NCBI GenBank assembly: GCA_037783545.1
Contig: JBBELK010000162.1
Location: forward strand, 1,860,001-1,924,000
Reading direction: 5' to 3'
Length of the DNA stretch: 64,000 bases
Source of the DNA: Henricia sp. BOLD:AAB3569
Lineage: Eukaryota > Echinodermata > Asteroidea > Spinulosida > Echinasteridae
The notes beneath the pieces are model-generated. The model saw only the letters and a program-made list of their open reading frames with translations. It had not been told where the DNA came from and did not search any database. Positions 39,309 through 63,388 of the stretch are shown in pieces; position 1 is the first letter of the stretch; each line of letters begins with the position of its first letter. A program made the position numbers and the translations under genes.

Positions 39309-42300
39309 CTGAAGCAAACAAGGAGATTGGGATCACGGGGAAATTGTAATATACACAACTCAATCTTCAGTGTAGCTGACACCATTTTCAAAGAGTCAAG
39401 TGAGTTAGATGCAAAACGTATAACAAAACTTGGGTATGGAGGGGAACGTTACAGAACAGTTACATTTTCCTGTTCTTCAAGCATATAAAAATGGCCCCCG
39501 CCACACCCCACTTTGCAAAGTCTGGCGACGTCACTGCGCGAATGGGGTTATCGAAGTGATTATTACATTGGGCGTTGAAGTGAATATGATCGAATAGGGT
39601 CGAATATTTACTATACAACACCAAGCGGCGTTAAGAGGACTGGAGTTCGAGCAACGATTATATGGTCAGCTTTTGCTTAAACAGCTAGAATCCCCCCTTC
39701 CACGTTTTTTTTGTTTTCTGTTTATCATGGAGGTGTATGTGTCTACAACACCATCACAATTTGTTTTTCACAAACAAATCGTCAGGCTTTTGCTTAAAAC
39801 GTAAAGCAGTTCCGACCCTCTTCACCCGAAATTCTGAAACGCTCGAGGTCACTTGGCTTGTTTATCAACAGGGTTTTGACGTCATCCTGAGAAACATACA
39901 AAACGGCCTGTGCAGTATTGAATGGAATATACACGAAGTGAATGTTTATCATGCCTGTTTTGTCCTTGTAATTCAAAATACAAACATGAAAAACACTTCA
40001 TGTAATATGAAAGCTCTTTTGAAGTAAATACTGGTGCATTGCGACGGGTGGTTTTGTCACGGAACGAACGGCATTCACATCGGTCTGTGTACAGCATAGG
40101 ACGGTTCACTGCGGGGGAAGTTCCCACGTGTTTGAACATCGCCCGGTACAAGTTAGAATGAGCGACTCATTTTTCTCTCTCTTGGTAATAGAAAATAAAA
40201 TCTTTCTGCTCTTTTTTTTTTATAGTGTCTGGTAAAACATACAACTACGCAGCTACTGGGCATATCTCTGGCTTCTTGGACCAACAAAATTCTTCAAAAA
40301 ACACCATCTAACAGAGACGGTTTTCCAAGTTGTTTGCGTGTTAACGTATGGAGCTAACAATCGTGTTGACTTCTATTTCTCAGGATTGCGTCACGGGGTC
40401 ACGCGCATATCATGAATACCTAATGAGCGTTTCAGAAATCGCGAAAATCTCATTTTCGAAAAGCGCACTTTTGCTTGCAATTTATCTACTTAAAACCGAC
40501 AATTAAAAAATAATAAAAATCCACGTCGGCAAGAGGGATGTTTGGACTATCGAAAAAAGCCTAAATGCTGGATTTTCGTCAAGGGGATTCTTCCTCTTTA
40601 ACTAGAGTTCCTTCAACGACGATAATTATAAGTCTGGTCAATTTACGGGAAAATTGTGCTTGACCTAGAACTAATTACAATATAATGCATTCCAACACTG
40701 GCTGGTGTATAAAAAAATCACTCATTAACATACTGAAAATGTAATATTTTCTTAATGAGTGGAAATGTGATTTTTTGGGGGTGCTAATTCGCAGTAAGTT
40801 TTGTAAGTTTTCTTAAAACATTACACTGAGGGCGCTATTTCGTCTGTTACATATCAGGAATATCAGTTACATTATGTAACATTCGTCGGGAGACACGACT
40901 ACTCGTAGCAGACGAAATATTTCCGTCGTCTGCTATTTAAAGATGAGGCATTATGAACGAAACAGACATGTTTTTTTCACATTTCTGGGATTTTGTTTAG
41001 TTAATGGTCAAAAAATTCCCTGTTCGTTATTCCTTCTTGTAAATTGGTTTGTAATAATTATGTTGACAAAATAGCACAGTGTTGTATTTTATTTTATATC
41101 ATTGTTAATTTAAATTTGTTTTGAATTGTTTTTATTTCCCAGTCATTGGCCGTGAATACGCGTTTAGAATGAATGACCGACTTGACTTTGCTTGGCCACT
41201 AAGTGACCGCAGCGGCCAACTCCCTGAAAGAAAAATGTCTTTGGGTCACTTAATCTGAACAAGTGTCAGTTGTAAACTCTACCCGCTTCTAAAATTTTGA
41301 AGGATTATTTGCCAACTCCTACCCATTGCAAATTTAACCAACCACGTATTAAAATTTAACAAACCTGGGTTGGTTAAGGTTTTAAGAGTGAGGGACTGTT
41401 AATATCGAGAATCGGATGGCCACGGTCAAAAATAGATTTGTTTTCATACTTTCATATTTGACGGACCTTTGCCCCAAACTAACAAATTTGGTAAAATGTT
41501 TGAACAAAATAACTTTGTTGCCATGGCAACAGCCAAATTACGTTTTTAGGCTAGTTTTGCATTTTTTTCACGTTTTGGAGAGTGAAATTTGCATATTTTC
41601 AAAACTGCTTCACCATTAAACAAGATATAGAAAATTATTTTCTTTAACAGTTGTGGATAGGTGGGTCCTTGGAGGCTGCACTGCATGTATTAAAATAATC
41701 ACCAGGTATTTGGGTGGGTAATACCATTTATTTCAAATAGGGGTGTTTTTTTTACTTGAAAAGTATGAAAATATACCATTGTTTGACAGCTCATAACCCA
41801 TATGGTAGTGCTCCAATTTGAACATCGGCCACATATTGTTAAGATGAGACATTGGTCTTGTGGAATATAAAAAGAATAGCTGGGGTAAAATATTTTATTT
41901 TTCGCAGTGTTGCCAGACATTTCCCCATTTTTTCAAATGTTGGTGGAAGGCTAAGTAGAATAGGCGACATTTCAAAAAGGTGGCAGAAAGAGGATTTTTT
42001 TAGTAGAAGGTTGAAACATGTTTATTTGACCTAATTTTGTGGTGGTGAATCCACAAATGATGGTTACGAAGCTGTATTTTACGTTAAAGGGGTATTTTTT
42101 TGCAAAAAAGTATAACAATTAGTTGAAAAACAAGGCTTTGTTTTTACAGAAAAACCCTTTTCCTCAAATAGCACATGGTAACATGCCACTCTTACTTAAT
42201 TTGGGGTGCTGAATCCAAAAATAGCGGTGTCCAAATAAGTAAAGTGTGTCCAATACGCACGCGATATGTCTTTCCGTACCACATATTTGCTATGGGGCTC

Positions 42301-43719
42301 CATCGAGGTTTCTGATTGGTTGCAATGGATATGAATATTGATATTCTCTATATAGCGCCTGAGGAGTTGTTAAATAAAGCGATACAAGGAAGAAAATGAG
42401 AAGGTTTAGCGAGTTGCTTGGTAGTCTAGTGGTAAAGCGTAGGACTATCAATCAAGACTGGGGGCCATCCACTGCCATGAACTGGGCGCTTTGTCTTGTT
42501 GTTAAATCGAACAGCGCACAACGCGTACGCGTACACAGGCTTCGCAAGCAAATAATCGCGCAAAATTGTTCGAAGTGACAACATAATGTAACAGCATATC
42601 ATCAACACAAAACCCACAGTTCATGGCACTGGATGGCCCCCAGCTATTAGCCTCTGTCACACACTCAAGCGTGACCGACTAAAGCGGACAATTGTCAACA
42701 TGGCGGCCGAACACAAACGCTAAACCCTTTGTTCCATTCGCCATATTGACATTTGTCCGCTCTCGGTCCTCAATGCGCAAGCGCACTGGTCACGCTTGAG
42801 TGATATGACATAGGCTAATGGCGGACGTACACGGACTATGACTTTGCAAACACCTCGAAACTCTCGAAACACAACGTAGAGTTGTCCGAAGAAATGTCAG
42901 CTTTGTCAAATGTACCACGTTTAAAAAACCCATGAAAATCCATATGCGTTTTCCTGGTCTTGAAGGGGTGTTTCAAATATTCGTTCTCAGTTGATCGGGT
43001 ACTATGGGGAGAGGCTATAAGCCAGGCACTCCGTGCATGACGTAAGGTTTCCCGTGCACAGCCCGTGTACAAACCATCATGGTATGGAAGGAAATGTACC
43101 CAATTGATGTTTACGTCATGCACGGGAGTGCCTGGCTTATAGCCTCTCCCGGGTACTATGTGGCTTGCGTCATGCACTCTGTGGCGATCCATAAAAATGC
43201 ATCGCGTTGGAACACGCACGCGGAGTTCACAGCGCCCATGCATTTTGGACCGCGTAGATGCGAACCAAAAATAAGGAAATCGTTTGCAAACGATCTAAAT
43301 AATTTTATCTTGAAGGATTATTTTCTGGTAAAATTATATCATTTTGAGCGAAAACCTTTCATTGGATAGTTGCTATTAATTCAATCTTTACTTTCAGAAC
43401 TTTCCCCCTGTAAACTCGTCGATTACTTTTTGGGGTCATTGCAAATGATACACTGGGCCTTTAAGTGAATGCTATCAACAAAAACATCAGTATGCAACAT
43501 ATGCATGAGGTTAAACCAATCAGAAGCAGTGTTCGCCTAACTTAGGTACATGCAATACCACAATTCCTTGCGCTTGCGAGATATCGAAAAGGCTATTTAA
43601 TTATTTTCCACTTCAATTTGTCTGTAGAGCCAAAGTGTTTTGACGTACATTTTCTGTGTTCAAGGTCGGTTACATCTTTAAAAATAAATGTTAATCGTAT
43701 ATATGAGTGGGGTTCGTAC

Positions 43720-43792
43720 CTTGAAATTGCGCGATAAAGAAACGCACTTTGCTCTCCGATCGGAAGCCGCCGTCTTCGATTACAACTAGTCC
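43720..43792 (-). CDS. GABA-B-like receptor, exon c, duplicate
   Basis: Identical in translation to 36674-36746. It ends in phase 1. Joining it to exon a of the other copy (phase 0) shifts the frame, while joining it to exon d (phase 1) is correct. Confidence 0.75.
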
Positions 43793-44613
43793 CTGTCGGC
43801 ATAACATTGAGATAAAAAGAGGAAAATGTTTTCGGAAGAAAGACAATTTAATTATTGCAAACCACAGGCTTTCCTGGCCGATTTCCATGTATTAATTCTA
43901 TTTGACACAGCAAATACTCAATTTCGCATGAATTCTCCAAATTTCAATTTCAAGTACATGTAGATTGCATGCTATTTGTTGAAACATCTGCACAATTTGC
44001 TGCCACAGTCACTTAATTTTAAAAAAAAACACCTCACCCCCTGTCACTTACGTTGCATGATATTTTTCATCGTACTAAATTCTTGGGCCACGATGTTGGG
44101 GTGCGCTCTTACGATGCTAAAAGCATTGTGGGATTGCGCGTTACTAAAAAGATTTTCCTTGTATAGATAGTGATTTTCTTCAATTTTCAGTTGTTCTGCT
44201 TTTTGTTAGTTTTTTGCTGGGAAAAGATGCAAAATTGACAGTTGTTGGGTACAACAGATGAGCAACTAATAGTAAATTTAATTTTAGTAGATGTGTGCAA
44301 CCGTGGGCTATATACACGATGTAAGCCTACATTGAGTATAAATAGAAGTTGCTTTGCTAAATGTGTATTGTAGTTGAGCCACCGACCTTACAGGAATCAG
44401 CAGATAAAAGTACTGCAAGGGGTAATTAGCGAGAGTACTAGAGAAGTACGGGGAAAGCACCGTCAAAATACGGGTATAACGGGACAACCGTTAAAACATT
44501 TACGGGATAACCGTTAAAATTATGGTAGAAAGGTGGAAACTCGCTGCACACCTTTCGACCGTAAAATTGACGGGCAGTTGTTTACAATGTATAGTAAACT
44601 TATTTTAACCCAC

Positions 44614-44856
44614 CGTTGGTCCGGTAAATCGAGTTTCATAAACGCTCTCCAAAAGGACCGCCGCCATTTCTGTGTCCGAGTAGGTAAAGTCGTGTAGCGC
44701 CCTCGGAGGGTCGAGTCGCGCCAGTTTCTCCAAGGAGCGATTCAGCGCCATCGCCATGGTGATGAGAACATCGTACGATTCGATGTGCTCAAGTCTGTCA
44801 ACTCCCTCCCGGTCCAGGAGACCACGGATGAATTGTAGTTGGTCCTCTGGCGGTTT
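44614..44856 (-). CDS. GABA-B-like receptor, exon b, duplicate
   Basis: Identical in translation to 37568-37810, splice signals intact. No sign of decay, as expected for a very recent duplication or an assembly artefact. Confidence 0.75.
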
Positions 44857-46162
44857 CTAAAATAACGATTAAAAGGCAGCACTGCAGTAAAAATCTTCGC
44901 ATTAACAACGATAAATATACTAGTCTACTCATAATGATATCTATCCTGAGTGATACTCATGGCACTTAACAACATCATTATCCTATGCTCAATTGGGCAC
45001 AACTCCCTGGGGAGTATGCAGCACCGGCAGCCTGCTCACACAAGCGCTCAAAGGCTGCAACCCTTGCAGGTAACCATTTATTCCTGGGTGGAGAGAGGCA
45101 ACGTATGACAAAGGGCCTTGCCAAAGGGCACACGCACCTTGGACGCGGCGGGGAATCGAAATCACGATCGTAAAATTAGGCACGGCGTTGAGTTCAATGC
45201 GCCAAACCATTCGGCCATGGTACGTACTCTATGAGCGCCTACCGAGCCTGAAACATGACGATGATACGGTTTATTTACATGTGTGTTTTCCTGTTTGTTG
45301 CCACGTACCCAGAGACTCTCATACAGTTGTACGCATGTAAACAGAACGTGAGGTGATTATGCTTTATAGGGCTCTTGGCTCCACAAGTACATTATACAGC
45401 CACCACCACGCATTAATTAAACGACCCTGAACCAGTCTATAGCCATGTTCAGACGGGCACTACCTTCCAAAGTGAAGTTAACAACGACAGTCCCACCAAC
45501 AACGACGTATGTCCACACGGTGCTTTAACAACGACGCGCAAGCATGCACACGGCCCTTATTGCAATGGTGCGCGCTCGTAAGTAGCGCGCTATTCATAAG
45601 ATTTCTCGTTGTTAAATCGTCGTTGTTAACTTGTAAGTAAGTGCGTCCACACGGTCACTACTTACGAGCTTACTCACGAGTGCCCACTAACAACGACTTA
45701 ACTTTAAGTTAACAACCATCGTCTGAACGCACTTTATAGCTTAAGTCGTTTTGGACCACAATGATGGCATGTTTGGCAGCATCTCAGACACACATGTACA
45801 TGTAAGTCCTGATCATTTTATAAAACGAACAGAAGTGGGGTTTCGATTGCACATGTTTAGCCAATACAACATTTTAATGATTTTTGCGTCATTACTGTAC
45901 TTGAGGCGCACGTTTCAAGTTGCGGCATTTCGTCAGCACTGATAGCAATCCCCTTGCACCTTAAGCCGACCTCATAGGTGGTTTTTGCCACGAACTTCCC
46001 ACAACATGGTATTTTTTTTAAAGATTACCTGAGGCTATGTATAGACTCTACAGACAGTATCCGGTAATATCAACAGATCCTGCAGGAAAACTGCAGCAAA
46101 AATCGCACATTGGACCGGCTTTATACCAAAAGAATATCCTCAACAAAGGCAACCACACTTAC

Positions 46163-46354
46163 GATATCGTTGTACTGGATTTGCTTGACGTCATCCACGG
46201 AACGCCAGGCAGGCACGGAGAGGTGATACTGCAGGGCCTCCTCTAGCTGATCGGCCGTACACTCCCCATTGCCAACCTGTTCCCACCATCTCTCGGGGTA
46301 CCAACCAACCACGATCCACACGTACTTGGCACCGAACATTTCAAATTGATAAAT
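46163..46354 (-). CDS. GABA-B-like receptor, exon a, duplicate
   Basis: Identical in translation to 39117-39308, with the same splice signals. If exons a-b-c of both copies were spliced in series, the second set would be read out of frame, so only one set can serve a full-length receptor. Confidence 0.75.
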
Positions 46355-49300
46355 CTGAAGCAAACAAGGAGATTGGGATCACGGGGAAATTGTAATATAC
46401 ACAACTCAATCTTCAGTGTAGCTGACACCATTTTCAAAGAGTCAAGTGAGTTAGATGCAAAACGTATAACAAAACTTGGGTATGGAGGGGAACGTTACAG
46501 AACAGTTACATTTTCCTGTTCTTCAAGCATATAAAAATGGCCCCCGCCACACCCCACTTTGCAAAGTCTGGCGACGTCACTGCGCGAATGGGGTTATCGA
46601 AGTGATTATTACATTGGGCGTTGAAGTGAATATGATCGAATAGGGTCGAATATTTACTATACAACACCAAGCGGCGTTAAGAGGACTGGAGTTCGAGCAA
46701 CGATTATATGGTCAGCTTTTGCTTAAACAGCTAGAATCCCCCCTTCCACGTTTTTTTTGTTTTCTGTTTATCATGGAGGTGTATGTGTCTACAACACCAT
46801 CACAATTTGTTTTTCACAAACAAATCGTCAGGCTTTTGCTTAAAACGTAAAGCAGTTCCGACCCTCTTCACCCGAAATTCTGAAACGCTCGAGGTCACTT
46901 GGCTTGTTTATCAACAGGGTTTTGACGTCATCCTGAGAAACATACAAAACGGCCTGTGCAGTATTGAATGGAATATACACGAAGTGAATGTTTATCATGC
47001 CTGTTTTGTCCTTGTAATTCAAAATACAAACATGAAAAACACTTCATGTAATATGAAAGCTCTTTTGAAGTAAATACTGGTGCATTGCGACGGGTGGTTT
47101 TGTCACGGAACGAACGGCATTCACATCGGTCTGTGTACAGCATAGGACGGTTCACTGCGGGGGAAGTTCCCACGTGTTTGAACATCGCCCGGTACAAGTT
47201 AGAATGAGCGACTCATTTTTCTCTCTCTTGGTAATAGAAAATAAAATCTTTCTGCTCTTTTTTTTTTATAGTGTCTGGTAAAACATACAACTACGCAGCT
47301 ACTGGGCATATCTCTGGCTTCTTGGACCAACAAAATTCTTCAAAAAACACCATCTAACAGAGACGGTTTTCCAAGTTGTTTGCGTGTAAACGTATGGAGC
47401 TAACAATCGTGTTGACTTCTATTTCTCAGGATTGCGTCACGGGGTCACGCGCATATCATGAATACCTAATGAGCGTTTCAGAAATCGCGAAAATCTCATT
47501 TTCGAAAAGCGCACTTTTGCTTGCAATTTATCTACTTAAAACCGACAATTAAAAAATAATAAAAATCCACGTCGGCAAGAGGGATGTTTGGACTATCGAA
47601 AAAAGCCTAAATGCTGGATTTTCGTCAAGGGGATTCTTCCTCTTTAACTAGAGTTCCTTCAACGACGATAATTATAAGTCTGGTCAATTTACGGGAAAAT
47701 TGTGCTTGACCTAGAACTAATTACAATATAATGCATTCCAACACTGGCTGGTGTATAAAAAAATCACTCATTAACATACTGAAAATGTAATATTTTCTTA
47801 ATGAGTGGAAATGTGATTTTTTGGGGGTGCTAATTCGCAGTAAGTTTTGTAAGTTTTCTTAAAACATTACACTGAGGGCGCTATTTCGTCTGTTACATAT
47901 CAGGAATATCAGTTACATTATGTAACATTCGTCGGGAGACACGACTACTCGTAGCAGACGAAATATTTCCGTCGTCTGCTATTTAAAGATGAGGCATTAT
48001 GAACGAAACAGACATGTTTTTTTCACATTTCTGGGATTTTGTTTAGTTAATGGTCAAAAAATTCCCTGTTCGTTATTCCTTCTTGTAAATTGGTTTGTAA
48101 TAATTATGTTGACAAAATAGCACAGTGTTGTATTTTATTTTATATCATTGTTAATTTAAATTTGTTTTGAATTGTTTTTATTTCCCAGTCATTGGCCGTG
48201 AATACGCGTTTAGAATGAATGACCGACTTGACTTTGCTTGGCCACTAAGTGACCGCAGCGGCCAACTCCCTGAAAGAAAAATGTCTTTGGGTCACTTAAT
48301 CTGAACAAGTGTCAGTTGTAAACTCTACCCGCTTCTAAAATTTTGAAGGATTATTTGCCAACTCCTACCCATTGCAAATTTAACCAACCACGTATTAAAA
48401 TTTAACAAACCTGGGTTGGTTAAGGTTTTAAGAGTGAGGGACTGTTAATATCGAGAATCGGATGGCCACGGTCAAAAATAGATTTGTTTTCATACTTTCA
48501 TATTTGACGGACCTTTGCCCCAAACTAACAAATTTGGTAAAATGTTTGAACAAAATAACTTTGTTGCCATGGCAACAGCCAAATTACGTTTTTAGGCTAG
48601 TTTTGCATTTTTTTCACGTTTTGGAGAGTGAAATTTGCATATTTTCAAAACTGCTTCACCATTAAACAAGATATAGAAAATTATTTTCTTTAACAGTTGT
48701 GGATAGGTGGGTCCTTGGAGGCTGCACTGCATGTATTAAAATAATCACCAGGTATTTGGGTGGGTAATACCATTTATTTCAAATAGGGGTGTTTTTTTTA
48801 CTTGAAAAGTATGAAAATATACCATTGTTTGACAGCTCATAACCCATATGGTAGTGCTCCAATTTGAACATCGGCCACATATTGTTAAGATGAGACATTG
48901 GTCTTGTGGAATATAAAAAGAATAGCTGGGGTAAAATATTTTATTTTTCGCAGTGTTGCCAGACATTTCCCCATTTTTTCAAATGTTGGTGGAAGGCTAA
49001 GTAGAATAGGCGACATTTCAAAAAGGTGGCAGAAAGAGGATTTTTTTAGTAGAAGGTTGAAACATGTTTATTTGACCTAATTTTGTGGTGGTGAATCCAC
49101 AAATGATGGTTACGAAGCTGTATTTTACGTTAAAGGGGTATTTTTTTGCAAAAAAGTATAACAATTAGTTGAAAAACAAGGCTTTGTTTTTACAGAAAAA
49201 CCCTTTTCCTCAAATAGCACATGGTAACATGCCACTCTTACTTAATTTGGGGTGCTGAATCCAAAAATAGCGGTGTCCAAGATGTATTTTGAGGGCAAAG

Positions 49301-49424: not shown

Positions 49425-49473
49425 CACTGCAAAAACTGTGGTGTTAAATTAACACCAGTGGTGTTGTCTTATA
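49425..49473. mobile_element. Detached terminal repeat of the 57966-62714 element
   Basis: It reads CACTGCAAAAACTGTGGTG and on to GTTGTCTTATA, almost the same as the terminus starting at 57966. It is preceded by TA (49423-49424). It breaks off at the TA where the Tc1-like element begins. The continuation of this terminus is found inverted at 62714 and leftward, which is evidence for the inversion described in the findings. Confidence 0.75.
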
Positions 49474-49475
49474 TA

Positions 49476-50789
49476 CACTCAAGGAAAAAGAAACGCACCA
49501 CGTAAAATGTAAAGGAAATAGGACCGGCATTGTAAAAATGGTACATGTTCTAGATTTTGAGCAATTTAGAGATAAACGTCGATCTTTATTTATCTCGTTA
49601 CGGCTGAGTGATTTGGGTGAATTCCAAAAGCTGTGTTTTTGCATTTTATGCTAATGGTCACACATGAGAGAATCCTAGAGATGAGTTTGACTACTCCTGT
49701 CCTGAACACAACCCTTGCCTATAAAAAGACACCAAAATGATGCCAAAACACTTGTTACCCATGATGCAACGACTGTCACAACCTGAGAGAGACCGAGCCA
49801 TTGGCATGCTCCAAGCCGGAAGGAACCGACAGGGAGTGGGCAGGTTGTTCGGGGTCCACCACTCGACTGTTGTGCGTCTTGAACAGCGTACAACACTACT
49901 GGCACCTCCGCGGATCGTCCCCGAGCTGGCAGGCCGCGGGTCACGACCGCTGCACAAGACCGCGCCAACCGGCTGTCACACCTCCATGACAGGTTCCAGC
50001 CGGGTGATACTATATACCGGAAAACACCGGAAAATACCGGAAAACACCGGAAAACACCGGAAAACATACTAAATACCGGAAAACACTAAATACCGGAAAA
50101 CACCGAAAAACACCGGAAAACATACTAAATACCGGAAAACACACTAAATACCGGAAAACACCGGAAAACACACTAAATACCGGAAAACACCGGAAAACAT
50201 ACTAAATACCGGAAAACACACTAAATACCGGAAAACACCCGAAAGCACTTAATAACACCACCCCCACTACCTGCAGAAGACACCATAAAATACTGTTTTC
50301 CGGTGTTTTCCGGTATTTAGTATGTTTTCCGGTATTTAGTATGTTTTCCGGTGTTTTCCGGTAAATAGTACTACCGTTCCAGCCCGCTACACGCACTGCC
50401 GCTGAGACCATAGGGACACACCACAGGCCAGTGAGTGCAAGAACCATTAGAAATCGTCTCCGGGCCGACGGGATCAGACCATATCGACCATACGTGGGCT
50501 CAGTGCTGACACGCCGACATCGCCAGGCTCGGGTCCAGTGGTGCACAGCACACCGCCGCTGGACATTGCAGAGATGGTCGCAGGTGGTCTTCAGTGACGA
50601 AAAGAGGTTCAAGTGCTTCAGGGCCGATGGCAGGGAGCGGGTGTACAGGAGACGCCACGAGCGTTACGCGACGCTTGTGTCCGCCAAGTCAACTGGTGGG
50701 GTGGCCCAAGCGTGATGATTTGGGCTGGCATATCGGCCAATCAACGCACTGACTTGGTTTTCATCGAAAGAAACCTCAATGCTGCCCGT
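49476..50789 (+). pseudogene. Tc1-like transposase, 5' part, broken and interrupted
   Basis: A terminal repeat CACTCAAGGAAAAAGAAACG after TA is followed by a leader and an ATG at 49737. The frame encodes the helix-turn-helix region (RLSQPERDRAIGMLQAG, GRLFGVHHSTVVRL). It then shifts frame (GTSADRPRAGRPRVTT is in another frame) and is interrupted by a 374-bp element. Reading resumes with SARTIRNRLRADGIRPYRPY and TLQRWSQVVFSDEKRF, which contains the first catalytic Asp of the DDE domain. It shifts again before WAGISANQRTDLVF and stops matching the family after NLNAAR. The second catalytic Asp and the Glu are not here; they are in the minus-strand fragment at 62846-63388. Non-functional. Confidence 0.85.
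50002..50375. mobile_element. Small element with tandem ACCGGAAAACAC arms inside Tc1
   Basis: Flanked by the 9-bp direct repeat GTTCCAGCC (49993-50001 and 50376-50384), which rejoins the transposase reading when removed. Its ends are inverted: GGGTGATACTATATACCGG on the left and, on the opposite strand, GGTAGTACTATTTACCGG on the right. The left arm is about 230 bp of tandem ACCGGAAAACAC with TAAAT/CTAAATACCGG variants. The right arm is about 75 bp of the inverse. A unique core of about 55 bp (CACCCCCACTACCTGCAG) separates them. A 9-bp duplication is consistent with Mutator-like mobilisation. Confidence 0.8.
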
Positions 50790-51082
50790 AACTCAGAGAG
50801 TTTATGAATAGCGCTAATTACTAACTTAGCACTTTTACACAGCACGGTAAATCCATGTGTTTTATAATTTTTACTATAGCAATTAGCTGGGATTATTTTA
50901 CTTTCTTGGCTTCAATAATTTGTGTTTGAAACTGACCGCAATCACGTCCAACCGAAAACGGTTATCAATTAGCCTTTTAAAAGTGTGGCGGAACAAAAGG
51001 GGAGGGCGCTATTTAATTTTAATAGGTATGATTGTTTTTTGATAATTGTATTTCTTTCCAAAAATGTGTTTGTGTACGTGGC
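50790..51082. other. Spacer after inversion breakpoint
   Basis: AT-rich, no gene. It begins at the point where the Tc1 coding match stops (CCCGT then AACTCAGAG). Confidence 0.4.
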
Positions 51083-51178
51083 CTCGTCAACCCAAGCGAT
51101 ATTTGGGAAGCTATTAGGGGAGAATGCCACAATCTAACTGCTGATAGAGTTTCGCGCCTTGGCCAGGCTGACGGCCTA
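51083..51178 (+). repeat. SINE core fragment
   Basis: Matches the middle of the SINE at 13528-13861 (CCTCGTCAACCCAAGCGATA, then TTTGGGAAG and AACTGCTGATAG), without tRNA head or tail. Confidence 0.65.
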
Positions 51179-51384
51179 TAGTAGATCGGCAGCCCAGAGA
51201 GTTTTGGTTAAACGAACGCTGGGGACCCCGAAAGGGGGCAAAAAATAGCGCTGGGTCAAACATTCGAGGTACCACATGAAACTAAATTTAGATGATAGAG
51301 CACATCACACAGAGTACGGAATGGCCCTCGCCAGACGAATTTTCTGCTGCAAAAGTTCCGCCAGACGCCCGCCAAAATTTCGCT

Positions 51385-51545
51385 ACTTGGCAACAAATTA
51401 TCTCACCAAGTCGACGTATTGATTTCAGGAAGGCGACTTGACGAAATAAATATCTCGCCAAGTCGACTTATTAAATCTAGGATGTCGACTTGGCAACATA
51501 AATTATCTCGCTGGGTTGACTTAGCATCTCGCCAAGTCGTCATAA
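51385..51545. repeat. Scattered CTCGCCAAGTCGAC motifs
   Basis: Five or more copies of ATCTCGCCAAGTCGACTTA-like words, some inverted (GTCGACTTGGC), are spaced 25-40 bp apart. Possibly the remains of a palindromic repeat; no termini were identified. Confidence 0.5.
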
Positions 51546-51932
51546 TCCACGTTATAAGTAAACTTGGTTAGACAAAGGATGGCACTCACAGAGCGCCGTA
51601 CTTTTGCTTTGAAAGTGAAAGTGGAAAAAAATGGGAACACCACTCGACATATGTCAGATAGTATACGCGAACAAATAGACGTTGCCGGTCGTGAGAACAA
51701 ATAGACTTACAAAGAAGAAGGCGGTTGCATATGCATTAGTATTCGCGTTGCGTACATTTCGGATCGTGACATTGTCAGGGTACGAGGACACTAATGTGTA
51801 ACATCTCGGGTTGGTTAATATAGTATTTCAGAGACACCTTGCGGTTCAAGAAGCATTGTGGTACTCCAAATGCCGACATGCGCAGTGGTGCAGATCTGTG
51901 TACGTATGGAACGTACACTATAAGTCTTAATT

Positions 51933-52087
51933 GGGGATTAAAAGTAGGTCTGTCCAGTCTTAAACATACGTTTAAAACCGGCTAGGGTCCTGAGCGCTGA
52001 TAATGGCCCTCGCCTGGCGGCTTGGCCCATGCCCCTAGCCGGTTTTAAACGGATTGTTTAAGACGGGCCGAACCTACTTTTAATCCC
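51933..52087. mobile_element. MITE with GGGATTAAAAGTAGG termini
   Basis: Inverted arms include GGGATTAAAAGTAGGTC, TTTAAAACCGGCTAGGG and their complements, nearly meeting in the centre. No clear target duplication. Confidence 0.65.
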
Positions 52088-52257
52088 ATTCATAAAAACC
52101 TTTTTGTGTAAATCAGTAAAACTCACCAAAATTAGCATGAATTCACTTTCTACCGCGTTCGTATGAACTGCTGCTGTGCGTCGAATTTTTGTTGTTCATA
52201 ATACAAGCGTGTTGTCCGCGCACGCACACATACGACCGGGTACTTGTCACAAGGTGC

Positions 52258-52540
52258 GTTCAGACGATCGTTGTTAACTTACAAGTATAGTCGTTGGTAG
52301 TGGGCACTCGTGAGTAAGCTCGTAAGTAGTGACCGTGTGGACGCACTTACTTACAAGTTACCAACTACTTACCCACGAGAAATATTATGAGTAGCGCGCT
52401 ACTTACGAGCGCGCACCGTTGGTATATAGGCCGTGTGCATGCTTGCGCGTGGTTGTTAAAGCACCGTGTGGACACGCGTCGTTGGTAGTGGGACTGTCGT
52501 TGTTATAACTTTACCTTCGAAGGTAGTGCACGTCTGAACA
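52258..52540. mobile_element. MITE with GTTCAGACG termini, inverted copy
   Basis: Same family as 38401-38683 in opposite orientation, with visible divergence (for example GTTGGTAGT in place of GTTGTTAGT words), so it is an independent insertion. Confidence 0.7.
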
Positions 52541-52771
52541 TGACTTCAGCCAGCGCACGTCCACACCTTGCTTTCGGGAGCGTACGGTTTGCATGTGCGT
52601 GTGCGTGTTCCATACGCGCTGACCAGGGCGAGGGCGCGGCTGTGAGCCAGGCTCAAAAGTGTTTAAGACTGATAGGGCATGTGTCGCTCGTTTAAAAATG
52701 CCCACGTGATGTGCTATCAGCCAATAGGGATGCGTAAACTGTCTAAGGTATTCATGAATGGAGTATAACTA

Positions 52772-54305
52772 CACTCTCAGAATGCTGGTTAAAATATCAC
52801 TGGTTAAAAATCAGTTGGTTAAAAATCTCCCAATGTTGGTTAAATTCTATGAGTTGGGTAAATTTTTCTTTAACCAGGGGTTGGTTAAGAAATATTCTGC
52901 TTTCTGGTTGGGTAAACTGCGGGTTGTGTAAAATATAAGATCAGAGGGCTGTATTTTAACCAACTCTGGTTATAATATTTACCACTCGCGAATCGATGTT
53001 GGTTAAAAAAAATCGCCCAACCATGTCACGTGGTGTCCAGTGAAAGCTACCATTGGTTAGTGACTCGTTTGTCTGCAAAATAGCAGCAGTGACAAAATGC
53101 CCACGCGCGCTGTGTGTACGTGTCTGTGTACATTGTACGTGTAAAACTATACTCAAACGTACGGTAGATGGCGAATGTGTTGACGTCAAATTTGCAAAAT
53201 GTAGTGGTGCTTTCCGAGCTGAAACAACTATTTCAAGGTAAGTTCTGCCTCGTTATTTGTCTGGGTCGGTGGATGGCAACAATTGATAGGTACATTAGTT
53301 TAATAATAGTATGAATGGATGGGTCACATATACCGCCTTTGGATCTTACTGTTAATAGTCCTTGTTTCATTGTGTTTATCCACACAGGAGGGGCTGATCG
53401 GATCGGATTTGGCATCTTGGCAGCAACTGTTACTCGACAACAACCGCGACTTACAGCAGAAGCCAAGGCCACAACCACTCATCATGCACATCACAGTTGA
53501 TCTGACTAGGCTACTGCTAAGCAAGGCTTCGGCGTGAACCACGTCTTCTTGATCAAAGCTGCATTTTGACCACTTTTTCGACACAGAACGAACTTCCCGT
53601 AGTAATATAATGGCAACTCGGAAAGTTTGCAAGTGTTATTTCCCAATCTGAATTTAACAATTGTTTTGGCTGTGTAAACCACAAAAATAAAAATACGCTC
53701 TTTTCTGACTTTATATAGTGCAGCTGAGCTAAACGTCACACAAGCAATCTCGAACTCATTGTTAACACAGTGTGATGTGAAACATTTAAATATGAACATG
53801 TTTGAAGGAAGCTAAACTCTTTCATTTAGAAAATACCAGTATATATTTGGCCTACACCTGCTGCTAAAGTATATACATGTACATCAAATATACATCCCCC
53901 CCCCAAAAAAAAATAAACAAATAAACAATGTAAAACTGTCAAGTCCATCGTGTGGTGTTTGCCTTTATTTAGTGTCCTTTATACCCAAATATCTTTTTTT
54001 TAAAACTTTTAACATAATAAATTAACCAATTGTTGGTAAAATATTGCCCAATTGTGAACAGCATTTCAGTAAAATGCCCAACCATTCGGGTATAACCAAC
54101 TGCATACTCGCCATTAACCAACAGATTGGTTAAAATAAAATTAACCAATAATTGGTTAAAATGTTTAACCAACCACGTATTAAAATGTAACCAACCTTGG
54201 TTGGTTAATGTTTTAACCAACTGTTGGGATGTTCACCTGGTAATACATGGTTGGTTAAAATTTTAACCAAGTTGGTTAAAAATTTTAACCAACGTTCTGA
54301 GAGTG
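52772..54305. mobile_element. TIR DNA element, copy 2 (CACTCTCAGAACG family)
   Basis: Termini CACTCTCAGAATG and CGTTCTGAGAGTG with TA on both sides (52770-52771, 54306-54307). Dense GGTTAAAA/TTAACCAAC subterminal words. It lacks the nested MITE and C-rich block of copy 1. Inside it keeps a short gene-like unit with intact splice signals (53168-53500). Confidence 0.78.
53168..53500 (+). CDS. Putative two-exon mini-gene inside TIR element copy 2
   Basis: Exon 1 (53168-53237, MANVLTSNLQNVVVLSEL and five more residues) ends in phase 1 at a strong donor, CAAGGTAAGT. Exon 2 (53388-53500) begins after GTTTATCCACACAG and reads GGADRIGFGILAATVTRQ to a stop, total about 60 residues. A longer alternative frame of exon 2 (EGLIGSDLASWQQLL) would need a different exon 1 phase. 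No family is recognised. The element may have captured the 5' end of a host gene with its promoter. The upstream sequence (53095-53165) has GC-rich and GTACGTGT words but no TATA box. Confidence 0.35.
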
Positions 54306-54309
54306 TAGT

Positions 54310-54880
54310 GTATATTCATTACATATTTCCATGTGCATTTTACTACCTATAGTATACAGCATTTACATCCCTATAACACCATAAATATAAAAAGGAACTC
54401 CATATTCAATTAACAACTGAAAAATCCCAATCCACATCCTTATACCCAGCGGGATTCGAGCCAGGGCCTCACAGGTGCAATTAACAACGTCTGCACTGAA
54501 CAACATTTGCATGTTTCAAACATTTTCGGATAAATACGTTTCTCTTTTTTTGTAGACATCGGGCGAAAATGATTAAAATTATAATAATAAAAGAAAAGTC
54601 AACACAATTTTATTTGGTTACCACATTGAGTAACGTAATTTTTTTTACACAAATATGCACTCAATCACGTACAGCACATGTATACACAAAAGTGTCTTCA
54701 ATAGTTGATTTTTTGTATTATTCTTTCAGAGCGTATGGCGTCACACATTAAGCACAAATTAATTTACGGAGCACTTGACATATGCGCCAGTTGTACTGCC
54801 CACTAATATTGCAGCTAAATCATCCTTTCACTGTAACGGGAATATTATTTTTTTGCGCTTCAATTTGATTGCAACCCATT
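54310..54880. other. AT-rich spacer
   Basis: No gene. A minus-strand B-box-like GGCTCGAATCCCG lies at about 54450, an isolated tRNA-like remnant. Confidence 0.35.
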
Positions 54881-56110
54881 TATTATAAACTAACAAATGT
54901 GGTAAAAGTTTTGAAAAAAAATACCTTTGTTGCTATGGCAACAGCCAAATTTAGATTGTTTCACTTTTTTCACTTTTTTAAGAGTGAAATTTGCATATTT
55001 TCAAAACTGCGTCACCATTAAACAAGATATAGAAAATAATTTTCTTTAAAAGTTAATGATAGGTAGGTCCTTGGAGACTGCACTGCATGTATAAAAATAG
55101 TCACCAGGTATTTGGGTTGGTTATACCATTTATTTCAAATAGGGGTGTTTTTTCTCTTTTTTTTAGTATGAAAATATACAATTTTTTGACAGCTCATAAC
55201 CCATGTGGTAGTGCTCCAATTTCAACATCGACCACATATTGTTGAGATGAGACATTGGTCTTGTAGAATATTTTAAAAACAGTTGGGGGAAAAAACTTTA
55301 TAGTTCGCAGTGTTGCCAGACATTTTCAAATTTTGGTGCAAGGCTAAGTAATAGGCGACATTTTTAAAAAGTGACTAAAAAAGGGACATTTTTAAGTAGA
55401 AGGTCGTAACATTTATTTATTTATTTATTCACCACATCCAACAGCGGAGGGACCGCCAATTACAGGAATGGGAGCAAGTGTGGTTGAGTGCCTTGCTCAA
55501 GGGCACAGGTGCCACAACCCGTCGCGGCCCGGGATCGAACCTACATTCTAGTACTAACATGTCGATTTAATCTCATTTTGGGGTGCTGAATCCAAACATG
55601 ACAGTTATCAAGTTGTATTTTAAGTTAAAGGGGTATTTGTGGCCCAAAAATGCCAAACATTTGTTAAAAAAACACCAGTTTTTGTGCAAAAAAACCCACT
55701 GTTTTCTCAAATAGAACATGGTTACATGCCATAACATGCCACTCTTTCTAAATCCATAAATGACAGTGTCCAAGTTGTATTTTGAGGGCAAAGGTGCTTC
55801 TCTGGGGTAAAACATAAAAAAGTTTATAAACACTAGTTTTGGGTAAAAACCAAAAAAAAGGAGAAAAGAGATGTAGCCTAATTGACAAGAAGAGGTTTTT
55901 TTTAGTAGAAGGTCGTTACTCGTTACTTTTACCTAATTTTGGAGTGCTGAATCCAAAAATGGTTGCCAAGCTGTATTTTAAGTTAAAGTTAAAAATATAC
56001 TCAAAATATTTTTGAAAACGTTGAGTTTTTTGTTAAAAAAACAAACAAATGTCTGCGTAGAACATGGTAACATGCCACTACTTAATTTGTGGTGCTGAAT
56101 CCACATGACT
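54880..56110. repeat. Diverged repeat related to 41450-42233
   Basis: Shares order and wording with the right end of the duplicated unit: TTGCTATGGCAACAGCCAAA, CATTAAACAAGATATAGAAA, GGTCCTTGGAG, TTGACAGCTCATAACCCAT, then several repeats of TTTGGGGTGCTGAATCCA. Similarity is roughly 80-85 percent by eye, so it is an old interspersed repeat, unlike the 7-kb duplication. A SINE-like insertion (55405-55560) interrupts it. Confidence 0.65.
55405..55560. repeat. SINE-like insertion
   Basis: A TTTATTTATTTATT tract is followed by CCTTGCTCAAGGGCACAGGT and a B-box-like GGATCGAACC. Core and promoter words in this order suggest a SINE; boundaries are approximate. Confidence 0.5.
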
Positions 56111-56805
56111 TTACCAGCAAGCTGTATTTTGATGGTCAAAGGGTTTTTTTGTTGACAAAAAGCATAAAAGCAATTTTTAAATTCCTAAATCTAAACAATA
56201 CTGTTACTATAAAGCTATTGTTTGGTATTGAAGCGATCCTATTGAACCACAACCACATAGCATGGCTCAAAATTATTATACATGTATACAAAGCAGGTAT
56301 TTCCATAATGAAAATTAACCAATGCATGAAAAGGAAATAATCTTATCATATCAGTTTTACAGTGGAATATGAATATATTGAACTTGAAGTGTGCAAAATA
56401 CACATTACTAGGAGTGTTAAAATCTCTTTGCTCAAGGTAATATGAGACAACGGCCTATAATTTTAAAGTGGTAATAAGAGAAGGATGGGGTGAATTTAGT
56501 TGTAAACCTGTACATTATAATTAAAAAGTGAGAAAATTTATTGGATTAGAGATGCTTGTTTTAGTACAAAACAAATATTTTAAAGATAAATCGGGAACAT
56601 GCCAATCCTAGCTTTTCATCCATTTCGTCCTAAAACAAAGTGGTCGAAAATTATGTCTTTGCTTGCAACTTTTTTATGTTTTTGGTTTTTTTTTCTGTTT
56701 GTTTCTCGGATACACTTCTCCTTAAAACAAATACAAAAATTTGGTTGGATTCAGCTTCGACAAGACTTTTGTCTGGTCACCAACACCACAATAATGCACC
56801 TATCA
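56110..56805. other. AT-rich sequence without recognised genes
   Basis: No supported exon or element boundary. Confidence 0.35.
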
Positions 56806-57110
56806 ATTGTTTCCCCCGCCCCTCACCCCCGGACTGCCCCACATAAGAGGTTGGGATTGTCACTTTTCTTGCGAGACAAAATCCCCACCCTTGGGGAAAA
56901 ATTTAGATGACAAAGACCCCCACCGTCGGGTGCAAAACATGTACATTTTGCTATCAGATGCATAGAAATGTGTATTTCAATGCGACAAGATCCCCACCCT
57001 GGGGCATGAACAATTTAGCCAAATCCCCACCTAAGGGGGGCGGCAGCCCGGGAGAGGGGGGTGGGGGGGGGGGGGGGTACCCCGGGAGGGGGGAGGGGGT
57101 GGGAACGAAT
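56806..57110. repeat. C/G-rich interspersed repeat, copy B, with poly-G tract
   Basis: Same CCCCACCCTGGGGCA and GCCAAATCCCCACCT words as 1030-1250. It ends in a long interrupted G run (57030-57105) likely to form quadruplex structure. The 204-codon plus frame that crosses it has no family motif and a Gly/Pro-rich artefactual section. Confidence 0.5.
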
Positions 57111-57495
57111 GATATGTGCATACGAAGACGTCACCCTCTCTTTGGCCATATTGACTGCTACCAGATGACATGCCAGCTCATGGCACCCTTAACTAAGCTG
57201 CGCATCAACATTGAAGGGGGACCGGGACTCCATATTCTGACGTTGCGTGAAGAAGACCCAGGGACCGCCCAAGCACCACCTGGGCTGCTTTCGAGCGCTC
57301 GTCCCTGGTGCTCCCAGGTGGTGGAAACGTTACGTCACACACATGCTTACACACGCTTTCTGGCGAGCACCATAGAGCACCATGGAGCACCTGGTGCCGC
57401 GCTCGAAAGCTGCCCTGGGTGTGCTACCTGGAAGCTGACCACCGGACACGAGTACAACAGCTGTGACAGTCTGCATCTCGTTTTGATCTGGGCAG

Positions 57496-57954
57496 TACGA
57501 AGACCCAGAGGGGACATTTAAGTATTATGCTTTTTTTATTTTTAATACGTACGTACGTGATAATAGTACGTACGTACGTGATAATAATAAGTACGTACGT
57601 ACTATTATCACGTACGTACGTGATAACAATACGTACGTACGTGATAATACTACGTACGTACGTGATAATTTATTACGTACGTACGTGATGATACTACGTA
57701 CGTACGTGATAATACTACGTACGTACGTATTATTATCACGTACGTACGTGATAATACTACGTACGTACTTAATATTATCACGTACGTACGTATTAAATTA
57801 TCACGTACGTACGTGATAAATTATCACGTACGTACGTATTAAATTATCACGAACAAACGTACTATTATCACGTACGTACGTAGTATTATCACGTACGTAC
57901 GTATTAAAAAAATAAAAAAGGAAAATACTTAAATGTCCCCTCTGGGTCTTCGTA
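57496..57954. mobile_element. Foldback element with ACGTACGT array core
   Basis: Inverted termini TACGAAGACCCAGAGGGGAC and onward through ATTTAAGTA on each side, with TA at the outer edge of each. The core (57545-57905) is about 16 copies of the self-complementary word TACGTACGTACGTGATAATA, in either orientation, giving nested palindromes. No ORF is expected to be real. Confidence 0.8.
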
Positions 57955-57999
57955 GTGCAGCTCTACACTGCAAAAACTGTGGTGTTAAATAACACCAAC

Positions 58000-60344
58000 T
58001 GTTGTCTTATAGTGTTGTTTCGTACGCGCGCGTTGTTGCCGAGGCCGCCATGACATATGACACTTGTGTAAACAGCACGTGCGTCCCTGACGCATGCCTG
58101 TAGCTAGCTATGTGCAGACAACGCGGGATTATGCAGCAATATGATCGGAACATATTCATCATGGCCGGTGGATAGATCCAGTTTTTATCATAGTCTCGGC
58201 TCGTGTAAGTGATCGTGATCGTGGACGCGGTGATCAAGTCCCAATTTAGTCTTTTGCCAAGGTTTGCTAGCTTTACAACTTAGGTGTTCACAATCACCGC
58301 TCGCGCCCGGCCTGGTGTTTTTTTTTTTACACCGCAGATGTACGTACCCCAGTTTTTCCAATGACTGATAGGCCTACTTCTCAAGTGACAATCTTGGAAG
58401 TACAGTAGTCAAAACTCTCACTATTATTATATTTCGAAAATCCCAAACGACACTGATATTTGAACCAAGGGACCTTATGATTGCAAGTCGAGCTCTTTTC
58501 TAACCAACCTTAACCCTATACTTTAACCTAGTATTATATAGTCTCCTTTTAAGAAGCTAAACAGGTACAAACCCCCCTCGTTTTCCCTTCGCAGTGACGT
58601 AAAAAAGCGCCCTCTGAGTGGTACTGGTACGGGAAAATCCGCTAGACTTGACTAAGTCCGACTTCAATGTAACCGCCTCTTTGACACTGATGAGACTTGT
58701 CCCAAGTCTTATTGTGTGAGCGAGGCCGAGGCTGAATAACCACAACTTGGTTTCTAAGTAAAAGGCCACCAGTGAGAAATGCATGCACATGGATGATTTT
58801 AAAGGCCCAACAATATATCATTTAAAAGATGAAACTTTTTTTACAGACTATAGTGCAATAACATCAATCAAGAATGTTGGTGAATTACGGTAGCCCACAA
58901 AAATTTCAGCCATAAAATTCCTGCATTTAACAAAATATTGAGTGCACTACCACCTTGCAGAAAGTACCACCTTGGACAGAAATACATTATAAAATGTGGT
59001 TGTTGTTATTGCTGTCAACATTGTTAACTAAGGTAAACAACTTTGGGTCATTGCAAATGATGGGCTACAAAAACCTTTAAGTTGATTTGCATTAGAATTG
59101 CGAGAAAAAAGCGGCAATAAACATACACAGACAATGGAAAGTCCAACATTTGTATATTTTGCAATATTTTATTCAAATTCATTAGTCAAAAAGTGACAAT
59201 TGTTTTCAATAAAACTGAATACATTTGTACTATAGTAAGCATTCCTTGGTCCACAATACACATACACTCCTAAGAATAGTGGAACTTGTTATACTGATCG
59301 AATAAAAATTACAAAGATACAGGAATTTTTTGTTACTATGTTAAAAAGTGTTCCTAAAATTGAGCATGACATGCTTGAGTGTTTTTCTTTTGAACTGCCC
59401 AATTTGACCTTTCTGCTGAAAATCATTTTCTTTTGACTTTCAGTATAGTAAGAGGTCCTACTTTGCAGATTTCCTGAAAAAATTAACCTGAAAAAATGCA
59501 AAACAAAGGGTTTAGACCTACAAATGTCCTTGCTATGAACAGAATGCCTTATATTATCCATGTTTGTCTGTGGTACTTTGTACCTGTAGTTGTGTAACAC
59601 TGCATATTTTTAATGGTCTGACTTCTACAAATTAACTGCTAAGGGTGGGTTCATCACACTGTGCCTTTTCGTGCTTAAATTTGATGTGGGTCCTGTTGAC
59701 AAAAAGTGGTGTGACTATGTAGATAATTTGGAGTGAAATGACAACCGAAAATTACAGAATCACAAAACACCTTTATCCCGAGTTTATTGTGTCGTTTTTA
59801 GTGTGTCGTTCCACTCCATGTTGCTTTTTTTTCCACACCACACATATCAAATTTATACGCAAAAAGGGGCAGTACAGCCCACAAAAACAAACAAAAATTA
59901 ACCCGGTCAATTAGCTGCTGCTTTGGTATTTAATATCTGGCATCCAAGCACAACACGCCCCTTTACCATAAACCCACTCCCCTATTCACCCACTCCCCAA
60001 TCCACCCCTGCTGCCTCTTGCTCCGCCCCCATATTATTAAAGAAATATACCCAAGACACAGACATTGTGTACCTTCTTGTTACACAAAAGAAAAGTAAAA
60101 CAACCCACTGAAAGCGAAAATGAACAAATAATGGCAGTTGCAGTGATGCCTCGTAATGCGAGTGCTGCAATTTTTTCCAAAACTGGGTGAAAAATGTCTT
60201 TTCGCATACAGTCCAGTTTTCGGACAAAATGGCGGTGCCCATACAACAAGGCAATGCCATTTGTTTATATCTGCTTTTCATCATTTGATCATTTTCTTTT
60301 TCTTTGCACAAGAACAATGTATGAGTTGCACTTTTGGTCTAGCA
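58000..60344. other. Transposon interior without resolved genes
   Basis: Between the left terminus and the two exons, no convincing exon was read on either strand. Frames at 59289-59600 and 59982-60317 (minus) lack recognisable motifs and splice support. Confidence 0.35.
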
Positions 60345-61172
60345 CTACAGGCCATATGGCTGTTTCTTGAGTATAAACACTTTTCTTTTAAGGAGCACTA
60401 AGAGGAAATAATACTGCGAGCTTAATTGTACTGTTAACAATGGCACAGGTCTAGGCAGAACTTTATTCTGTGACAACCGACTCACACGTTTGTCAACCCA
60501 CAGCAAATGTGTTTTTTTCATTTCATTAATTTCCATTTCCATCTGCATAATATTATAACTAGTTAAGTCTGTCTGATAACCTTTTGTTGTCTCATTCTTC
60601 TCAGTTGATGGATGCATCTGGTAATGTCTCTCTCTTGGCTTTTTCCTCCTCTTTTTCAAAAGGTGCCGTTTCTTGGTGGAACGGTCCTTGGCTCTGTCAT
60701 ATCTTGTTTTACCTGAAATGAAACAAATCAAATCATGAGAAACTAACTATACATGTACAGGGAATGTAATTTAATTAGTTAAATTTAATGCGATACTGGG
60801 TTTTTAGAAGTCCTGAAAAATGTAGCAACAAGTGAAAAGAAAGTCCAAATAAAAAGTAGAACCTACCCAAAGCCCTTTTTATGTTAAGAGAAGTCAAGAA
60901 AATAGGTGTACCTGTATGCAAGGTGAATTTTGACAAAATGGGGATTTCAACATTCCAGTTTTACATTTTAACATTTCTGTGATTTTTAGTGTGTAAAAAA
61001 GGAGCTAAAACACCACACACCGTTAATACTGGGTCTAAGTGCCATTCTGAATGAACTAAACTGGAAAAGTACCTTGGCCATTATGCAGAATGGATGGAAG
61101 ACAGGGTATGCCTTCAGTTGGTGCTTCAATGTCATTGCTTGGAGGCACTTCAATCATCACCTCAACAGCAGC
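60345..61172 (-). CDS. Putative transposon-encoded protein, two exons, partial
   Basis: Exon 61172-61073 (acceptor TTCAGTAG, donor CAAGGTACTT) reads AAVEVMIEVPPSNDIEAPTE then GIPCLPSILHNGQ. Exon 60712-60345 (acceptor ATTTCAG) continues in phase with GKTRYDRAKDRSTKKRHLL. It then runs through a Lys/Arg-rich segment, the phrase KGYQTDLTSYNIMQMEMEIN, and a helical stretch to a stop. A Q-T-D-x-T phrase followed by a short coiled coil recalls the linker between the THAP domain and the DDE domain of some eukaryotic transposases, but no zinc or catalytic motif is visible here. Upstream exons probably exist between 61173 and 62670 and were not resolved. Confidence 0.35.
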
Positions 61173-61438
61173 CTACTGAACAGGAAAACATGAGTAGGTG
61201 TGGTCTACTTCATCTGGTCTTAACATCAGTAGTTTTCTTGACACTTGATGTACATCTGTCAGCAGAACTTGGTCGCTGCAAATATTAAAGAAATATTTAT
61301 TTCAACACAAAAAACAGTAACAGAAACAGCATTTTCAACAGTTGCTTGTTTTTTCCTAGTTTGTTTTTCCCCATGATAGTGGAAAACTTCCCCTTAAATG
61401 GTTTGGGTCTGAAGTGCTATAGTCTTTCAGTGAAACAT

Positions 61439-61632
61439 TAGACCTTTTGGGGGTTTTCCGCAAACAATGGAATTAGCACAAATTGGTACAGCGGACCTTT
61501 GACATGTAGGCCTATAGGTAGATGGCATTCCGCAATTAGTGATAGGATCGGGAACCAGTTTATACATGTCAAAGGTCCACTGTACCAATCATGCTATTTC
61601 CGTTCTTAGCAGAAAATCCCAAAAAATGTCTA
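61439..61632. mobile_element. MITE inside the 4.8-kb transposon
   Basis: Inverted termini TAGACCTTTTGGGGGTTTTC versus GAAAATCCCAAAAAATGTC, with an inner inverted pair around GGTACAGCGGACCTTTGACA and TGTCAAAGGTCCACTGTACC. Confidence 0.6.
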
Positions 61633-62714
61633 TTATTTCAAATCAAATCAAAGTTGATCATATTTTTTTTAATAACACATCTAGCATAGGTAAGTGCAGA
61701 TTTGATGGAAAAACCTAAACTTTTTAGTGAGAAATATGTTTTGCACATAAGATCTAAAGCCATGATCAACTGCTAATTTTTTTTTCTGGACAGATACGTA
61801 TAATTAGTGGCGTACATAATGCTCTCATTAAAAAATATATGCCTGAAAATTTGGTACAAATATCGTACACGTTCGCCACTAATTCGTCCTAATAAAATAT
61901 GACATATAATGCCCCAAAACGTGCAAATTTGGTTAGAGGTATGAATTCCGTTTACAGAACAGGGCAGAACAAGTTAAGTATTTTCAAGGAAAATGGTAAA
62001 TGTTTTTCACTCCTAAAATCACTCCTCATTAAAATATTAACACGTTTTTGTGGTTAATGTTTTGTGGTAAATAAGTCAATAAAGAGAATAAGTGGCGACC
62101 ACTAAACGGAATTATTTCCTAGTTAGGAAATATGATTTTAGCAATGAGAAAATATCAAGTCGTTTCATTGAAAACACATGGTATGCGAACAAACGTGTCG
62201 ACCTAGTTTTTTTCACCTAAAAAATCCCCTTCCCCTCCCCTAAGCAACTTCGGCTTGCATGGCCTCCCCCTCGGCAATTTTCCCAGTACATGTAGGCCTA
62301 TATCCCTAGCTGCATATGCAATGCCTACCTAATGCCAGGCTTGCCAGACCTGCTGGCTGGAAGGCAGTTGGCCCGACCACTTTGTTTGCAGAGCCGGCCG
62401 TGCAGTCATAGCTACAGCCTGGGCCTATAGGTTGAAAACCCACACATTTCTGTCACTCCGGGCCTCCACCGCCGGTTGTGGCAGCTCGAAACGGCACAAA
62501 TCTTGAGGCATCGCCGGTACAGCAGCTAGCACCAACACGAGAAAACCTTCTTAAAACTAGGCCTTGTTGGCTGGGACTGAGATTTATGCGAATCGACGAC
62601 AGCGTCCGATTTTCCGTCTCGCAGTACACTTTGTCCCGTTTGTTTACGCGTTGCTGTGCATACACAGCTGTCATATGTCATGGCCGCCACCAAAATGCGC
62701 AACTACACTATATA

Positions 62715-62843
62715 GATACCAAGCCTGGTGTTAAATTTTAACACCACAAGTATTAGTTTTAACACCGAGGGTGTTAACAATAATGCATTTATTCCAAGTG
62801 TGGTATTAAAATTAACACCTATGTAGATACCAGGCTTGGTATC
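62715..62843. mobile_element. Small MITE with GATACCAAGCCTGG termini
   Basis: Inverted termini GATACCAAGCCTGG and CCAGGCTTGGTATC with TA on each side (62713-62714, 62844-62845). The interior is GGTGTTAA/TTAACACC palindromic words. It lies exactly between the truncated end of the 4.8-kb transposon and the Tc1 3' end. Confidence 0.7.
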
Positions 62844-62845
62844 TA

Positions 62846-63388
62846 CACTCAAGGAAAAAAGAAACGCACCACTGATTTTTTAAAAGGTTTTTGCCTGAAT
62901 TTTGTGAAATCAAATGTATGTGTTTGAATCCACATATGTCCTTGACATTTGAGCCAAGTAATGTAATGTTTATTTCATTGTTAACAACAACAACAAAAAC
63001 AAAACATGTTAGCACCACCGCTCACAAAAGTGGCATTTACAGTTCAATAATTAACATGACCTCCATTCGTCGCCGCATGGATCGACAGTAGCTGGTCCTG
63101 TGGGATAGCCGCCCACTCTTCCTCCAGTGCCGCTCTCAGCTGCTGTTGTGTCTCTGGGGGATGAGCTCGTTGTCGGATGCGACAACTGAGCAAGTCCCAC
63201 ACATTCTCAATGGGGTTCAAATCCGGACTGAGAGCTGGCCATGGCAACACCTAGACATCGTTCTCCTCCAGGAAGTCGGCGCACACACGAGCCACATGGG
63301 GACGGGCGTTGTCCTGCTGAAACACAGCACGACCCCCAACTTGCTCCAAAAAGGGCAGCACAATTGGGTCCAGGATCTCGTCGCGGTA
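62846..63388 (-). pseudogene. Tc1-like transposase, 3' part, broken
   Basis: The terminal repeat CACTCAAGGAAAAAAGAAAC at the left end matches that of the plus-strand half at 49476. Reading leftward from 63388, the minus strand starts at YRDEILDPIVLPFLEQV and continues through VFQQDNARPH (second catalytic Asp). A stop (TAG) follows ADFLEENDV, then WPALSPDLNPIENVWD, with the catalytic Glu, and HAATNGGHV at the end. It begins at precisely the residue after which the plus-strand half (ending NLNAAR) fails. Non-functional. Confidence 0.85.

Follow-up and report, generated by a model that had tools for sequence, protein, structure and literature searches.

The DNA considered here, a window of 64,000 nucleotides from the sea star Henricia sp. 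(contig JBBELK010000162.1, positions 1,860,001 to 1,924,000), contains a left half of a Tc1-like transposon on the plus strand and a right half of a Tc1-like transposon on the minus strand, which raises the question of whether a single transposon was cut in two and, if so, by what kind of event. A two-break inversion of the 12,599-bp segment from 50790 to 63388 (about 12.6 kb) very probably explains the cutting of a single copy. The features on which this reading draws are given below in the coordinates of the window; residue numbers are those of P0001, a protein of 340 amino acids that is the closest intact relative among the matches listed.

49425 to 49473, plus strand: terminal segment of a larger, TA-flanked outer element with the tip CACTGCAAAAACTG, apparently left outside the inversion; 44 of 46 bases match 57966 to 58011.
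49476 to 50789, plus strand: left Tc1-like half, comprising the end repeat, the DNA-binding region and the beginning of the catalytic domain; degenerate, with frameshifts; ends at P0001 residue 216.
50002 to 50376, plus strand: short element, with ACTAAATACCGGAAAACAC units forming a palindromic tandem array in its interior, within the left Tc1 half and flanked by an 8-bp target duplication.
50789/50790, no strand: first proposed inversion junction, from the direct in-frame fusion and breakpoint enumeration, with a 1-bp ambiguity.
50790 to 57965, minus strand: putative flank on the right side of the outer element, inverted at present, as deduced from the flip; contains repeats.
57966 to 62713, minus strand: outer element, its body together with the intact right end, inverted, 4748 bp; 92 of 101 bases match between the ends after rejoining.
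62714 to 62843, minus strand: small TA-flanked element of 130 bp, bounded by GATACCAAGCCTGG ends and situated between the Tc1 half and the body of the outer element; its arms match at 32 of 34 bases, with two gaps (10 bp and 1 bp).
62846 to 63388, minus strand: right Tc1-like half, running from YRDEIL as far as the end repeat; it has one stop and some small indels, and its first residue corresponds to P0001 residue 217.
63388/63389, no strand: second proposed inversion junction, from the direct in-frame fusion and breakpoint enumeration, with a 1-bp ambiguity.

The last reading frame of the left half terminates in VFIERNLNAAR at 50789, and the minus-strand reading of the right half opens, at 63388, with YRDEILDPIV; direct fusion of NLNAAR to YRDEIL keeps a single reading frame, and P0001 reads NLNAARYRDEIL uninterrupted across the join. 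A search with the conceptual protein gave 2102 relatives, of which the 120 listed were used for a half-by-half alignment, with 138 left-half and 100 right-half residues aligned separately to each relative. The gap between the projected edges of the two halves is 0 residues in 118 of these 120 listed relatives, and the gaps of 153 and 184 residues in the remaining two probably stem from misplaced local matches. For each half, the best match among the 120 listed is P0001 (132/138 residues on the left and 96/100 on the right), and the same six relatives head both rankings in slightly different order. Across the listed relatives, the score of one half shows no correlation with that of the other (Spearman −0.05, p 0.58), a result that is read as uninformative because the listed identities below the closest few are mostly 45–52% and nearly flat. 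The outer end repeats of the two halves are identical over all of the aligned bases (26/26), apart from a single extra base. The exact tip CACTCAAGG has two copies in the window when both strands are searched, at 49476 and 62846, both on the plus strand and both preceded by TA; the end repeats are therefore direct repeats at present, and a flip of 50790 to 63388 makes them inverted. BLASTN with either half at an E value of 0.001 found no other Tc1 match in the window. The original prediction had the left half ending at NLNAAR and the right half starting at YRDEIL, the two abutting without gap or overlap, belonging to the same Tc1 family and carrying the same terminal repeat, and it withstands these comparisons on every one of these points, its coordinates being right to within the 1-bp ambiguity at the breaks. 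As far as sequence goes, the alignments show the pieces to be complementary parts of one family member that abut exactly.

The assignment to the Tc1-like group draws on both halves. The conceptual protein across the join exceeds the Pfam cut-off for both PF13358 (50.2 bits) and PF01498 (33.2 bits); the left part alone matches PF01498 at 34.7 bits, also above the cut-off, and the right half alone matches PF13358 at 39.2 bits, whereas the match of the left half to HTH_38 is weak and below threshold (20 bits versus a cut-off of 27). The spacing from the second D to the E, counted inside the right half alone, is 34 residues, which we take to be the catalytic DD34E signature. The copy thus resembles the DD34E Tc1-like members of the Tc1/mariner superfamily in its DDE_3 and Tc3-type helix-turn-helix (HTH_Tnp_Tc3_2) domains, in the 34-residue spacing, and in having TAs and repeats at its ends, the repeats being inverted after the flip only, but it differs from them in being degenerate (frameshifts and a stop), in carrying an inserted element and in being split in two. 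Judged by its reading frames, the element is dead, the left half changing frame at P0001 residues 43/44 and 176/177 and the right half containing the stop and small indels. A scan of viral contigs based on P0001 gave no DNA relative.

When the breakpoints were enumerated under the condition that an arginine codon (CGN) be followed by TAC at the restored join, a single solution was obtained, with a 1-bp slide and with zero bases gained or lost. Both of the reciprocal junctions expected of one reversed segment are present within the window, which is free of N. Comparison of the junction flanks with each other by BLASTN, at E values up to 0.1, gave zero matches over spans of 300 and 1000 bases, and over a 3000-base span it gave two matches, both on the same strand and neither inverted; to the right of 63388 these spans were limited to the 612 bases that the window holds. 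No extended homology was thus found at the junctions, and the breaks are consistent, at this level, with a conservative two-break inversion. The junctions without gain or loss of bases, their 1-bp positional ambiguity and the lack of a detected inverted repeat flanking both point to probable repair by end joining. The starting state would have been a Tc1-like transposon located within one end of the larger TA-flanked element; two double-strand breaks, one in the Tc1 coding region and the other about 7.2 kb past the far end of the outer element, would have been followed by rejoining with the intervening 12,599 bp in reverse. At the other restored site, where 50790, reversed, meets 63389, no repeat match within the window spans the join and open frames across it reach about 45 residues at most, so this site gives the inversion no independent confirmation.

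To the left of these features, a 7046-bp stretch is present twice in tandem, head to tail and without a spacer (35188 to 42234 and 42234 to 49280); the two copies differ by one mismatch, at 40342, and overlap by 1 bp where they meet. This duplication is either very recent or an assembly fault.

The explanation that competes best with an inversion is an error of assembly or haplotype merging, the segment being uninverted in the real chromosome. The second of the 7046-bp tandem copies ends 145 bp left of the outer tip, and this near-perfect duplication may itself be such a fault. False inversions, however, are usually located on long inverted repeats, and no inverted match was found between the junction flanks at any of the three spans, to the extent of the 612 bases on the right; in addition, both reciprocal junctions lie in one N-free window. 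The lack of any inverted repeat detected at the junctions makes an assembly error unlikely.

Evidence for the two-break inversion also comes from the outer element. Its exact tip CACTGCAAAAA has two copies in the window (both strands searched), at 49425 and 57966 and both on the plus strand; these tips are direct now, and flipping 50790 to 63388 makes them inverted and produces an element of about 4.8 kb. The body read inward from 62713 on the minus strand matches the outer right end at 41 of 47 bases. In a control with 5000 random stretches of the window away from these sites, the best score was 32 against the 70 observed for the tip segment, and 24 against the 45 observed for the continuation of the body. 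After trimming of three overlapping bases (62711 to 62713), the rejoined outer end aligns with the other end at 92/101 bases. It should be noted, however, that the present arrangement, which includes the small element past 62713, already matches the outer right end at 79/89 bases, because a palindromic GGTGTTAAA..TTAACACC module is common to the small element and the outer ends. The rejoined end scores 100 under strict scoring as opposed to 66 for the present order, and under softer scoring the values are 97/106 (score 128) and 88/99 (score 98), respectively. Because the present order aligns at 79/89, a truncation of the body at 62713 is not evident, and what the outer element offers is support for the inversion, not a second proof of it. 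The pairing of the terminus at 49425 to 49473 with the end at 57966, which had been predicted, is borne out by the 44/46 match. For what had been called a truncated body at 62714, the continuation stands at 41/47 but the word truncated is too strong. Similarly, the proposal that one flip restores both transposons is upheld for Tc1, with inverted ends and a zero-residue join, and for the outer element in the orientation of its tips and its length of about 4.8 kb, but the outer evidence is weaker than had been stated on account of the module common with the small element. The presence of this module near the ends of both suggests that the small and outer elements may have related transposases. 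Pfam searches with 6 of the 19 stop-free fragments of the outer body (at least 60 amino acids each) gave no match, and a homologue search at an E value of 0.001 with three outer-body fragments strung together found none.

The order of insertion can be read in part. A perfect 8-bp target duplication, TTCCAGCC, lies at 49994 to 50001 and 50377 to 50384, and these are its only copies in the window on the plus strand, the strand searched; the array element was therefore inserted after Tc1, as the original prediction held. That prediction had also placed the small element in the sequence of events, but the small element and Tc1 meet at one TA used by both, and either order of these two is possible. 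Another short element that contains an array is found at 57492 to 57958, within 10 bp of the right tip of the outer element; it has 52-bp inverted arms (90%) and is full of a palindromic TACGTACGTACGTGATAATA array.

The array element in the left Tc1 half sits about 410 bp from the break. Hairpin extrusion by this element might cause repeated breakage, making the inversion recent, polymorphic and one of several local rearrangements, with which the 7046-bp duplication may be compared; this is a doubtful proposal, rated marginally below an assembly error. The transposons at this locus are markers of the inversion and not its demonstrated cause.

It is more improbable still that two separate Tc1 copies inserted in opposite directions with respect to a broken outer element and were each truncated independently. 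Truncated transposon copies are common, and the small element that separates Tc1 from the outer body makes the flanks of the Tc1 halves look unlike, but the pieces abut with no residue missing or repeated, a coincidence estimated at roughly 1 in 1500 if two cuts fall at random in about 1474 bp, and the flanks also continue each other. Two independent truncations were rejected on the basis of the exact abutment.

Aberrant transposition joins at element ends. The least credible alternative attributes the inversion to alternative transposition, carried out by the transposition machinery, or to recombination of two opposite transposon copies. Both routes are documented (Galileo in Drosophila, PMC2775673; maize, PMC8225341), but the Tc1 break lies within the coding region, which speaks against breaks made at transposon ends, no Tc1 match was detected at the second break when the window was searched at an E value of 0.001, and the locus holds one left half and one right half that are complementary, without the two chimeric flanking copies expected of recombination between two Tc1 copies.

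The conservative two-break inversion can be compared with inversions described in other organisms. PMC2775673 and PMC6278893 describe Drosophila inversions formed through breakage and non-homologous end joining, and the locus resembles these in its two breaks, its reversed segment and the lack of a detected inverted repeat common to the junctions; it differs in being read from one chromosome, and solely through the transposon that it cut. In PMC2775673, the Galileo transposon is reported to have generated inversions in Drosophila buzzatii, and transposon sequence is present at both breakpoints there as it is here. Recombination between transposon copies is expected, according to that text, to leave two chimeric flanking copies with exchanged target duplications, and the Galileo inversions have two such recombined copies, whereas the present locus has two complementary halves of one copy. 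Alternative transposition is reported as a route to inversions in maize in PMC8225341. The inversion at this locus is a real-looking, well-preserved rearrangement of an ordinary kind. A literature search with general terms found no title or abstract opening describing such a locus. One cut transposon here records both the breakpoints and the earlier order without a second genome, which makes this a nearly self-proving case, and a scan of single assemblies for transposons whose complementary halves lie in opposite orientation could reveal other small inversions.

Some further features of the window are recorded here. A search against Rfam gave no family at the gathering score, and the open reading frame at 27284 to 27664 has only 3 matching proteins. 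Arrays of related 16–17-bp units (CATGTTGCCGCATG..) are present at 19508 to 19770 and 21746 to 22348, with 15.6 and 37.4 copies, respectively. The segments 394 to 821, 1334 to 1622 and 2106 to 2824 are 86–90% alike to 52860 to 53276, 53294 to 53585 and 53585 to 54308, in the same order and on the same strand.
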